NCBI GenBank assembly: GCA_003244105.1
Contig: QHBK01000001.1
Span: 1 to 51,883, forward strand
Direction of reading: 5' to 3'
DNA from: Candidatus Eremiobacter antarcticus
GTDB lineage: Bacteria; Vulcanimicrobiota; Vulcanimicrobiia; Eremiobacterales; Eremiobacteraceae
DNA length: 51,883 nucleotides
In this document: positions 1,699 through 9,601 of the stretch, piece by piece
How the letters are laid out: the number at the start of each line of letters is the position of its first letter
How positions within the stretch are numbered: the first letter of the stretch is position 1
The notes under the pieces: model-generated
Seen by the model: the letters and a program-made list of their open reading frames with translations, nothing else
The model's database searches: none
Told to the model about the DNA's origin: nothing
Translations under genes and position numbers: made by a program

Positions 1699-1730
1699 GG
1701 TCTGCACAGCGAAGAGCGGCCGTGCAGGCC
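1686..1730 (+). promoter_or_regulatory. Programmed -1 ribosomal frameshift signal in the IS
   Basis: The heptamer G GGA AAC (1686-1692) lies in the orfA frame and fits X XXY YYZ. Six bases later a 9-bp stem begins: GGTCTGCAC (1699-1707) pairs with GTGCAGGCC (1722-1730), with one U-G pair and a 14-nt loop. Slippage by -1 after AAC puts the ribosome in the orfB frame, which is open from this point. This would yield the OrfAB fusion that IS3 elements use as transposase. Confidence 0.75.
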
Positions 1731-2555
1731 GTACGTGAGCGATTCCAGGTTGCCGAGCGGCGCGGTTGCCGCTGGTTGGGTGTGAATCGCAAGCTCTTGC
1801 ACCATCGCAGCCGGCGCGTTGATGAAACGCCGTTGCGACAGCATCTGGAATCGCTGGCGTTGGCGCACCGCCGTTATGGCTTGCCACGCTTGGTCGTCCT
1901 CCTGCGTCGCGCCGGCGTGCGTGACAATCACAAACGGATTGGTCGCGTGTATCGCGCGGCTCATCTACAAGTGCGCAAGCGAATCCGTCGCAAGCTGGCC
2001 CTGGGAGGAGGCATACCACCAGCTCATGCAACGCGACCAAATGAGCGCTGGTCGGTAGATTTTATCCACGATCGCCTGCGTCACGGCCGCAGGCTGCGTA
2101 TGCTTACCGTTGTCGACGATTGTACGAGAGAGAATCTGGCCATCGAGGCTGATTACGGTTTCTCCAGCCAACGATTGGTACGAAGCCTTGATGCAATCGC
2201 AGCCCTGCGCGGTTATCCGAGCACGCTGATCGCAGATAATGGACCTGAACTTTGTAGCCTCGCGCTGTTGCGCTGGGCGCAAGAGCGCAACGTGCGGCTG
2301 CATCACATCGCACCGGGCAAGCCGGTGCAAAACGCCTTCATCGAGAGCTTCAACGGACGACTACGAGACGAATGCCTCAACGAGCACGATTTCACATCGC
2401 TGGATCAACTGCGCGAGATCCTTACGCGCTGGCGCGCGCAATACAACACCGAACGCCCTCACAAAAGCTTGGGCTGGAGAACCCCGCAGGAGTACGTTCA
2501 TGCGCTGACAACTAACCCGGTACCTCAAACTCTCCACTCATTAGTGGCGACATGA
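1722..2555 (+). CDS. IS3-family transposase OrfB (DDE catalytic domain)
   Basis: 277 residues counted from a GTG at 1722, but that codon lies inside the frameshift hairpin. The frame is open back to the slippery site, so OrfB is more likely made as the C-terminal part of an OrfAB fusion spanning 1432-2555. An HTH_21-like segment ([17 protein letters not shown]) is followed by the rve integrase core. The DDE residues are visible in [16 protein letters not shown] and [16 protein letters not shown]. The C-terminal [18 protein letters not shown] is diagnostic for IS3. The frame appears intact, so the element may still be active. Confidence 0.92.
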
Positions 2556-3129: not shown

Positions 3130-3243
3130 GCGTGTGCCAGCCGTGCGCCAAAATACCTGGAAAATGGCGGAATACGACGGAACAACGATGTCGGTTCCGT
3201 GGGCTTTCCGCACCATTTCATCACCCTCATTGCACCTTGAGAC

Positions 3244-7348: not shown

Positions 7349-7861
7349 CTACCTGTGGCTCGAGCTGAGCGTCGTGAGCGCTGCGCGGATCTGCTTTTCG
7401 GACATCTCTCCGACGCGATGCACCGTGACGGTGCCATTGGGCGCGATGAAGACGTGCAGCGGTAGACCGGCAACGCCGTAGGAGCCGCCCATGTCGCCGC
7501 TTTCGTCCAGGACGATGCGATACTGCAACCGGTATTGATCCGCGAACTCCTTCGCTTTGCCTGGGGTCTCAAGCTCGTCCACGCCTATGACGACGACGTT
7601 GCGCTTGGCAAACTCGCGCGAGAGCTTGCCGATATAGGGAGCCTCAACTTTACACGGCCCGCACCAGGTCGCGAAGAAATTGAGATAGACTCCTTTGCCG
7701 CGCAACGACGCCAGGCTAAGGGTCCCCTTGCCATTCACTGCTACGGGAAGATCGAACGCAGGCGCTGGAGAGCCGGGCCGCGGCGGCGCAGCTGCAGTGG
7801 CGACGCTGCCGGACAGCAATAGCACCGCACCGACAACAGCGCCGACGCGAGCGTACCTCAC
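7349..7861 (-). CDS. Exported TlpA/ResA-like thioredoxin-fold protein
   Basis: 170 residues from GTG 7861. This start is chosen because its GTGA overlaps the TGA stop of the upstream peroxiredoxin and AAGGAG lies about 11 nt before it. An N-terminal hydrophobic stretch (VGAVVGAVLLLSGSVATAAA) is a signal peptide or anchor. The thioredoxin fold follows, with WCGPC at residues 66-70 (redox cysteines 67 and 70), an insertion typical of TlpA/AhpC-TSA proteins and a cis-Pro context GVAGLPLHVF. Periplasmic TlpA-like proteins reduce disulfides in target proteins. The coupling to a Sec-peroxiredoxin suggests this is its reductant (inference). Confidence 0.9.
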   Translation of the reverse strand: MRYARVGAVVGAVLLLSGSVATAAAPPRPGSPAPAFDLPVAVNGKGTLSLASLRGKGVYLNFFATWCGPCKVEAPYIGKLSREFAKRNVVVIGVDELETPGKAKEFADQYRLQYRIVLDESGDMGGSYGVAGLPLHVFIAPNGTVTVHRVGEMSEKQIRAALTTLSSSHR

Positions 7862-8406
7862 GTTTGCGGATGCTCCTTCAGCCACTCATGAACTTTGCTC
7901 ACGTTTGTGAGCGGGCTCCAGTCGAACACGCTGTATCGTACCGTGCCGTCGCGCGCGATGACAAAGGTCATCCGCTTGTCGAGCGCCATCTTGCCGACGC
8001 CTATCACCGCTCCATATGCCTTCGCTATGCTCTTATCGGGATCGCTGACGAACCGCTGCGGCGCCCGACTCTGACTTTGAAACGCTGCCAGCACCTTGAT
8101 GTCGTCGGGCGAGATGCCCACGACTTCAGCGCCGAGCTTGTGAAAATCCGCCAACCTGGCGGCATACGCTTTCGCTTCGATCGTTCAGCCCTGGGTGAAG
8201 GCCTTGGGAAAGAAGTACAAGACGATCGCCCCCTTTGAGAGAGCGCTGCTGAGGCGAAAGCTCTCAGTTTTCCCCGCCAGCGTCGACGTGGCGTTCACGG
8301 CCGGCGCTTTGTCGCCGATGGACAACGCCGCCGCCTGCATGGCCGTCAGCGGCATCGCAAGCAATCCGAGCGCGGCCGCCCCGACATATCTCCATAATGG
8401 TTTCAT
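7858..8406 (-). CDS. Exported selenocysteine peroxiredoxin (PrxQ/BCP-like), UGA read as Sec
   Basis: 182 residues if the TGA at 8185-8187 is decoded. ATG 8406 has AGGAAGG upstream. A signal peptide (YVGAAALGLLAMPLTAMQAAA) is followed by the peroxiredoxin fold: IGDKAPAVNATSTL, then IVLYFFPKAFTQG-U-TIEA, where family members have FYPKxxTPGCTxE. The UGA is exactly at the peroxidatic Cys (residue 74). Downstream the same frame continues the fold without interruption (LGAEVVGISPDD, RFVSDPDKSIAKAYGA, MTFVIARDGTVRYSVFDW). The second PrxQ cysteine, five residues on, is Lys here, so it would act as a 1-Sec enzyme needing an external thiol. The next gene, a TlpA-like thioredoxin, overlaps by 4 bases. 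The alternative is a nonsense mutation; the hairpin after UGA argues against it. Confidence 0.8.
8146..8187 (-). promoter_or_regulatory. Candidate bacterial SECIS element with its UGA codon
   Basis: In the mRNA the UGA (8187-8185) is followed by a hairpin CCGCC-AGGUU-GGCGG (8162-8148). With one bulged G, two further A-U pairs extend the stem. The apical GG lies 28 nt after the UGA, within the range known for bacterial SECIS elements. The loop has G in the first positions followed by U, as SelB recognition requires. The fold was derived by eye, without energy calculation. Confidence 0.65.
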
Positions 8407-8446: not shown

Positions 8447-9601
8447 TCAGTGGATGAGCGGACCTGTCTGCACGACCTCAAAAGCGCTTGCCGGTACGGT
8501 CTTGAGTTGGTTCAAGTCGTTGTCGTTCCAACTGGCGTTGGTCTCGCCGCTGATGAACCAGTCGGAGCCGTTATCGGCGACCAACATGCCGTATTTCTTC
8601 AACGCGACCAGCACCACTTTGGACTCGCCGGTGAAGCTTGAGATATCAAAGCTCGCCTTCAGACGGACGCGCAGGCCCATCGGCGGATCGTTGGCGTCGA
8701 GCGAAGAGCTGGCATAGTGGGTCGCGGGATGGATAAACGCCTTCTGGGTCCGATTCACGGTGAACCGCAGCGCGTGAAAGATCGCGCCTTGCTGCACTTC
8801 GTACAAGCGCGCGAGTCCCGGAAAAATCGGCAACCCGGCAGCGTCTGCGGACGTCCAGTAGTTCGGACGCAGCGCATCCGAGTTGAGGTGAAAGATCGCT
8901 CCGGCGCCTGCGTTCCAGCCGGGCCCGACGTAGTATGACGAGTACGTCTCGTACAGCACGCAGTTGTCGCGATCGATGACCAGAACGTGGCGATCGCCAG
9001 TAGAGCCCGCACCCCCCTCGACGGGAGCATTCGACGGGAACGGATACGGACCGGGATCGCTCTCGTCGGCGTAGGTGAACTGCATGGGTACTTTGGCCTG
9101 GCTACCTGGCACGGTGATATAAGGAATCCCATAGGTGGGATTCGACCCGAAGTCTGGGTGCAAATGCGTCGTCGCCCCGTTCATGTGGGCCATGTAGTTG
9201 GCGGAATTCAAATCGACCGGAAGTTGCGAGACATCTTGATTCCAGGGATTGTCGGCCGGGAAGACTGCACAGCCGGCGATCATGGCTTGGCCTCCGGGCG
9301 AGCTCGGCGTGGGCGTGGGAGCCGGTGTGGCCGTGGGGACCGGCGTCGCACTCGGTGCGGGCGTTGGCGTCGTCGTGCTAGGAATGGGCGTCGGGGACGG
9401 GTGCCTTCTGCGGGTTGGCTCTGAGCTCGCGGTTGAGCTGGAGGTGGGCAGCGCGGACGCGCCGACCGCGGGGGATGCGTTGGCGTTCGGCACCGGGTTC
9501 AGACCGAAGCCGGACGGCCCGGAAATTCCGGACCCTCCCCCCGCGCATGCCGTCAGAAAAAGCGCGACACTTGCCAGCGCGGAGAACATACGAATAGCCA
9601 T
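8447..9601 (-). CDS. Large lipoprotein with Pro/Thr linker
   Basis: 384 residues. A signal peptide ends in a lipobox, LFLTAC, with Cys at about residue 19. It is followed by a Gly/Ser spacer and a long low-complexity linker of PTP, PTPAP and TATPAP units to about residue 103. The globular part begins CAVFPADNPWNQDVSQLPVDL and contains MNGATTHLHPDFGSNPTYGIP, VLVIDRDNCVLYETYSSYY and a closing SDWFISGETNASWNDNDL. I know similar secreted proteins of unknown function from soil bacteria, but no catalytic residues can be named. It lies immediately upstream of the peroxiredoxin on the same strand. Confidence 0.75.
   Translation of the reverse strand: MAIRMFSALASVALFLTACAGGGSGISGPSGFGLNPVPNANASPAVGASALPTSSSTASSEPTRRRHPSPTPIPSTTTPTPAPSATPVPTATPAPTPTPSSPGGQAMIAGCAVFPADNPWNQDVSQLPVDLNSANYMAHMNGATTHLHPDFGSNPTYGIPYITVPGSQAKVPMQFTYADESDPGPYPFPSNAPVEGGAGSTGDRHVLVIDRDNCVLYETYSSYYVGPGWNAGAGAIFHLNSDALRPNYWTSADAAGLPIFPGLARLYEVQQGAIFHALRFTVNRTQKAFIHPATHYASSSLDANDPPMGLRVRLKASFDISSFTGESKVVLVALKKYGMLVADNGSDWFISGETNASWNDNDLNQLKTVPASAFEVVQTGPLIH

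Follow-up and report, generated by a model that had tools for sequence, protein, structure and literature searches.

Genes and features at the locus

The window, meaning the whole stretch of 51,883 nucleotides that was analysed, carries on its minus strand a gene for a peroxiredoxin with a putative signal peptide, whose reading frame contains an in-frame TGA, and an overlapping downstream gene for a TlpA/ResA-like thioredoxin, which was absent from the first-pass annotation of this DNA. The features of the locus are the following.

7349..7861, minus strand: gene for a TlpA/ResA-like exported thiol-disulfide oxidoreductase, the proposed reductant; its GTG start overlaps the stop of the peroxiredoxin gene (GTGA)
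7652..7666, minus strand: WCGPC redox motif of the TlpA-like protein, from the translation
7858..8406, minus strand: coding sequence of the predicted exported selenocysteine (Sec) peroxiredoxin, 182 aa with U74; ATG start, TGA stop, PF00578 across the in-frame TGA
8148..8162, minus strand: hairpin of the bacterial SECIS type, CCGCCA-GGU-UGGCGG, the loop occupying nt 29-31 past the UGA; kept in 10 of 10 family Sec genes
8185..8187, minus strand: in-frame TGA, read as Sec (U74) at the peroxidatic position of PxxxTxxC; U in 10 of 11 family orthologues
8326..8406, minus strand: putative signal peptide, about residues 1-27, MKPLWRYVGAAALGLLAMPLTAMQAAA, from the sequence, with the cleavage site placed by eye

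Upstream of the peroxiredoxin gene, and ending 40 nt before it, lies a gene on the same strand (8447-9601) for a 384-aa secreted lipoprotein-like protein with the lipobox LTACAG and a proline/threonine-rich linker, for which no Pfam or NCBIfam match was found. An IS3-type transposase with an rve integrase core is encoded elsewhere in the window (1722-2555, plus strand).

An in-frame TGA at the peroxidatic codon

The TGA is codon 74 of the 182-codon frame, in the residue context PKAFTQG-U-TIEA. The first-pass annotation had described a homologous frame open for 73 codons before the TGA and 108 after it; the same counts were obtained here, and a profile search with the read-through translation placed PF00578 across the TGA, at residues 30-158 (E = 9.4e-28). 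Within the family of the window genome (f1, Candidatus Eremiobacterota), 10 of 11 orthologues have TGA at the equivalent codon, namely the window gene and nine others whose proteins are 48-61% identical to the window protein; the remaining orthologue, in genome G005, has TGC. G028, a genome of family f2, has TGA at the same residue. In 85 genomes of family f3 the best match contained no stop, and the residue was Cys in all 19 sequences fetched. Outside Eremiobacterota it was Cys in all 77 proteobacterial loci, taken from a genome scan that retained the best 80 of 273. An f3 locus with a TGA, G117:C43, was considered as a further Sec active site and rejected, since its TGA lies elsewhere and its active-site residue is Cys. 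The earlier claim that the TGA replaces exactly the peroxidatic Cys codon was thus borne out, and the proposed comparison of position 74 among homologues returned both U and Cys. As expected of a bacterial selenoprotein gene, the in-frame UGA lies where homologues have Cys or Sec.

On either side of the TGA dN was well below dS, indicating mainly synonymous substitution; downstream of the TGA the pair G003/G004 gave a dN of 0.036 and a dS of 0.47, and several of the dS values are near saturation. From these sequence comparisons and the hairpin described below, it is nearly certain that the UGA encodes selenocysteine at the peroxidatic position and that the hairpin just downstream directs this decoding.

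If the TGA were instead a true stop, translation would end after 73 aa and the downstream part would be an ORF of its own, and ordinary ORF calling does yield only a downstream ORF of 98 aa, starting at TTG 8154. This reading is very improbable, because a single Pfam domain crosses the TGA, the part downstream evolves as protein, the hairpin and the Sec genes go along with the TGA, and a stop would fall on the active-site codon itself in 11 genomes. A sequencing or assembly error, or a decaying pseudogene, would be conceivable in a draft genome of 19 contigs, but is still harder to believe, given that the same TGA occurs in nine further genomes, which represent seven other genera of the family, and in a second family too, that the downstream frame is open and under purifying selection, and that the genome encodes Sec machinery. 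Genome-wide reassignment of TGA, for example to Trp, for which no supporting evidence was found, can be practically dismissed, as TGA terminates 14 of the 36 main window ORFs and the peroxiredoxin gene itself and the position holds Cys, not Trp, in homologues. All three readings were rejected on this evidence of conservation, Pfam span and use of TGA as a stop. Annotation that treats TGA as a stop will miss or split these genes.

The SECIS hairpin

Bacterial SECIS elements are hairpins just after the UGA whose apical loop contains a G and lies about 16-37 nt downstream. Here a G-rich loop begins at nt 29 after the UGA; the first-pass annotation had put a GG apex 28 nt after it, within one base of the loop position (nt 29-31) found in this study. 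All ten f1 Sec genes contain CCGCCA-(G[G/T][T/C])-TGGCGG, in which the loop occupies nt 29-31, each of the six stem pairs (23-37 to 28-32) being kept in 10 of 10, and the loop GGU being replaced by G-T-Y in two. The f2 gene of G028 has CTCCGCT..AGCGGAG, other bases that pair at the same place, and the hairpin is lost from the Cys gene of G005. The median folding energy of nt 19-44 was -9.9 kcal/mol in 11 Sec genes and about -4 to -4.6 in 97 Cys genes, so that the region is more stable in the Sec genes than in the Cys homologues (p = 9e-8). Stem codons were also more uniform than the rest of the gene (0.83 vs 0.65, permutation p = 0.014), indicating synonymous constraint. Rfam gave no SECIS match at the gathering threshold. 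Because the stems of the Sec genes are nearly invariant, covariation rests on G028 and the paralogue.

The same genomes encode a second, cytosolic-looking peroxiredoxin of the PrxQ type. In each of the 13 loci identified its peroxidatic codon is TGA (L165, at G000:C6:302000-309000, with the Sec codon near 3201-3203, and L026-L037). These genes have their own hairpins: nine of the 13 have a GGU loop at nt 29, with one compensatory pair (A-U to G-C), and the other four have a different hairpin much nearer the UGA, with the loop AGUUCC at nt 17.

Selenocysteine machinery

The source genome (2.64 Mb, 95.8% complete) contains the full set of tRNA-Sec, SelA, SelB and SelD expected where selenoproteins are made. 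The tRNA-Sec, with a TCA anticodon, lies at C16:20414-20503 (75.7 bits vs a cut-off of 47); selA and selB are adjacent on the same contig (SelA 511 bits vs 268, SelB 320 vs 242), and selD is at C3:378019-378987 (358 bits vs 125). Absence of selB and tRNA-Sec from a near-complete genome had been named in the first-pass annotation as grounds for abandoning the Sec reading; all four components are present. Of the 14 family genomes, 13 had SelB over the cut-off and one had a truncated piece of it; across the phylum SelB was over the cut-off in 113 of the 149 Eremiobacterota genomes, which places a further phylum among those that use selenocysteine.

SelD is itself a Sec protein (L166, G000:C3:376000-380500), with an in-frame TGA in SCAG-U-ASK; aligned by eye, this U appears to correspond to the catalytic Cys17 of E. 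coli SelD. Genes for rhodanese-type sulfurtransferases and an MBL-fold/rhodanese fusion adjoin selA-selB (L045, 7485-9947) and are possibly linked to selenium or sulfur handling.

A peroxiredoxin without a resolving Cys

P67, T71, residue 74 and R145, the catalytic residues of peroxiredoxins, are invariant. In the AF2 model (mean pLDDT 89.6) residue 74 lies at the start of helix 72-83; the best PDB matches of the model were Bcp structures (3drn, 3hjp, 5epf). The PxxxTxxC/U motif, the catalytic Arg and the peroxiredoxin fold together place the protein in the peroxiredoxin superfamily (AhpC/TSA); it reached no NCBIfam cut-off. Inspection by eye of the N-terminus showed a clear hydrophobic stretch with an Ala-rich end.

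A second Cys was absent between -45 and +112 of the active site in all 11 Sec forms, which accordingly lack the resolving Cys that defines 2-Cys peroxiredoxins. In the Cys forms a further Cys stands at +40, within an ECRxKF motif, in 19 of 19 sampled f3 sequences and in 77 of 77 proteobacterial ones (among the best 80 of 273). The +40 position, in the modelled Sec protein, falls just after helix 103-112, as expected for a resolving Cys, and the +40 Cys of the Cys forms is likely to have that role. It is absent also from the Cys gene of G005, as expected if that gene reverted from Sec. The putative resolving Cys at +40 in Cys homologues, and its absence both from all Sec forms and from the reversion, are new here. 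Among known peroxiredoxins, AhpE works without a resolving Cys.

The TlpA/ResA-like neighbour as a candidate reductant

The product of the overlapping gene has a thioredoxin-like fold domain, a WCxxC motif and an N-terminal signal or anchor, as TlpA/ResA thioredoxins do; against the ResA model NF002854 it scored 102.5 bits, under the cut-off of 170. A TlpA relative lies directly downstream in eight of the 11 Sec loci, and in G008 the peroxiredoxin and TlpA form one in-frame fusion of 332 codons from the ATG. No TlpA gene was found in any of the 19 f3 Cys loci, within about 1.5 kb, or in flanks of up to 5 kb around the 77 proteobacterial Cys loci (among the best 80 of 273); weak TlpA matches in Cys loci were rejected because they were the peroxiredoxin itself. 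The association of the predicted Sec form with a TlpA neighbour, by adjacency and once by fusion, is new here. An adjacent TlpA gene was absent from the Sec genomes G003 and G004 (both of genus g4) and G028, as well as from G005 (g4). The pairing is not universal, since these Sec genomes do without the neighbour and every genome of the family encodes other TlpA-like proteins.

The gene most probably encodes an exported, periplasmic one-Sec peroxiredoxin that is resolved by the thiol of a partner, for it has no resolving Cys of its own, and the co-encoded TlpA/ResA-like thioredoxin is the most likely partner. The Sec position and the gene linkage were established by comparing sequences, and from them we infer the rest of the catalytic cycle. 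After export, the selenolate would attack H2O2 or an organic hydroperoxide and become a selenenic acid (Se- + ROOH -> SeOH). The first Cys of the TlpA WCGPC motif would then attack SeOH, giving an intermolecular mixed selenenylsulfide that the second Cys would resolve. A CcdA/DsbD-type protein would then reduce the oxidised TlpA-like protein again from across the membrane, and two candidate genes for such membrane proteins (DsbD_TM) are present in the genome.

That the TlpA-like neighbour recharges the Sec-peroxiredoxin is probable from the gene arrangement. It is possible, though rather doubtful, that the Sec-peroxiredoxin is real and its neighbour is not the reductant, this task falling to some other exported protein of thioredoxin type or to a low-molecular-weight thiol while the neighbour serves cytochrome c maturation or some other purpose. 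The four genomes without a TlpA neighbour (G003, G004, G005 and G028) and the several TlpA/ResA-like paralogues per genome would fit such a division of labour; the start/stop overlap of the two genes, a linkage (8/11) seen with Sec forms only, and the in-frame fusion in G008 argue against it. On balance we somewhat favour the broader interpretation of a dedicated extracytoplasmic selenoperoxidase pair, in which a non-resolving Sec peroxiredoxin relies on the TlpA-type thioredoxin encoded beside it and in one genome fused to it, Sec is widespread but undescribed in the phylum, and the Sec/Cys switch tracks the internal resolving Cys.

Comparison with known peroxiredoxins

Sec peroxiredoxins with TxxU are established, as in PrxU of Eubacterium acidaminophilum (PMC13188914), with which the Eremiobacterota protein shares the peroxiredoxin fold and Sec for the peroxidatic Cys. 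Unlike PrxU, it is predicted to be exported, lacks any other Cys and is coupled to a TlpA-like gene, and its score against PrxU (NF040737), 49.6 bits, is far from the curated cut-off of 270. The Sargasso Sea metagenome contributed 43 TxxU peroxiredoxin sequences (PMC1088965), of the COG1225 type like the window protein, but known as fragments of marine metagenomes.

The first-pass annotation had called the protein PrxQ-like. This holds for the Gly before the peroxidatic residue and for the best named matches (PRK09437 and the Bcp structures); it does not hold for family membership, the score against PrxQ/BCP (PRK09437) being 67.3 bits vs a curated cut-off of 140, or for the resolving Cys, which is missing, and the putative signal peptide is a further difference. 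The active-site motif is intermediate, as PxAF(T/S)xxC is the signature of AhpE and Gly before the peroxidatic residue marks PrxQ (PMC5302317). The likeness to AhpE, by motif description, extends to the lack of a resolving Cys; Sec, predicted export, the adjacent TlpA and the PrxQ-type Gly set the protein apart. The same motif, as PKAFTxGC, occurs in exported peroxiredoxins of Proteobacteria (Comamonas, Sphingomonas and others), with 37-46% identity and an N-terminal extension that aligns with the putative signal peptide, which differ in having Cys at the site, a second Cys at +40 and no TlpA neighbour.

The first-pass annotation had judged such a protein not well described, and the literature agrees: in the open-licence literature no relevant link was found between Eremiobacterota/WPS-2 and selenocysteine or selenoproteins, the only co-occurrence of the words WPS-2 and selenocysteine being in an unrelated tea paper, and a description elsewhere is possible. 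A 2026 inventory (PMC13188914) mentions neither Eremiobacterota nor WPS-2, and the main papers on the phylum that were examined do not mention selenium. While Sec peroxiredoxins as such are already known, a predicted exported, probably partner-dependent one in Eremiobacterota, soil bacteria that have received little study, seems to be undescribed. The first isolate of the phylum was described as a strict aerobe (PMC9758169), and most known selenoprotein-rich bacteria are anaerobic (PMC5029168).

Changes between Sec and Cys

In the phylogenetic tree the Sec forms lie opposite the clade with Cys plus a second Cys, the outgroup is long-branched and mostly Sec, and the G028 row is long; G005 is nested within the Sec forms with support of 100/97. 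Among the Cys/Sec changes, only the predicted Sec-to-Cys reversion of G005 is well placed. These closely related exported peroxidases, which have either Cys with a second Cys or Sec without one, often with a thioredoxin gene beside it, amount to a natural experiment on the reason for Sec, and the putative reversion has neither Sec, hairpin nor second Cys. The G005 gene (L167, G005:C63) has the appearance of a natural reversion in that it has TGC and neither hairpin nor resolving Cys while the genome retains SelB. In the tree the exported Cys peroxiredoxins of Proteobacteria fall within the f3 forms of Eremiobacterota, and this nesting suggests gene transfer between phyla.
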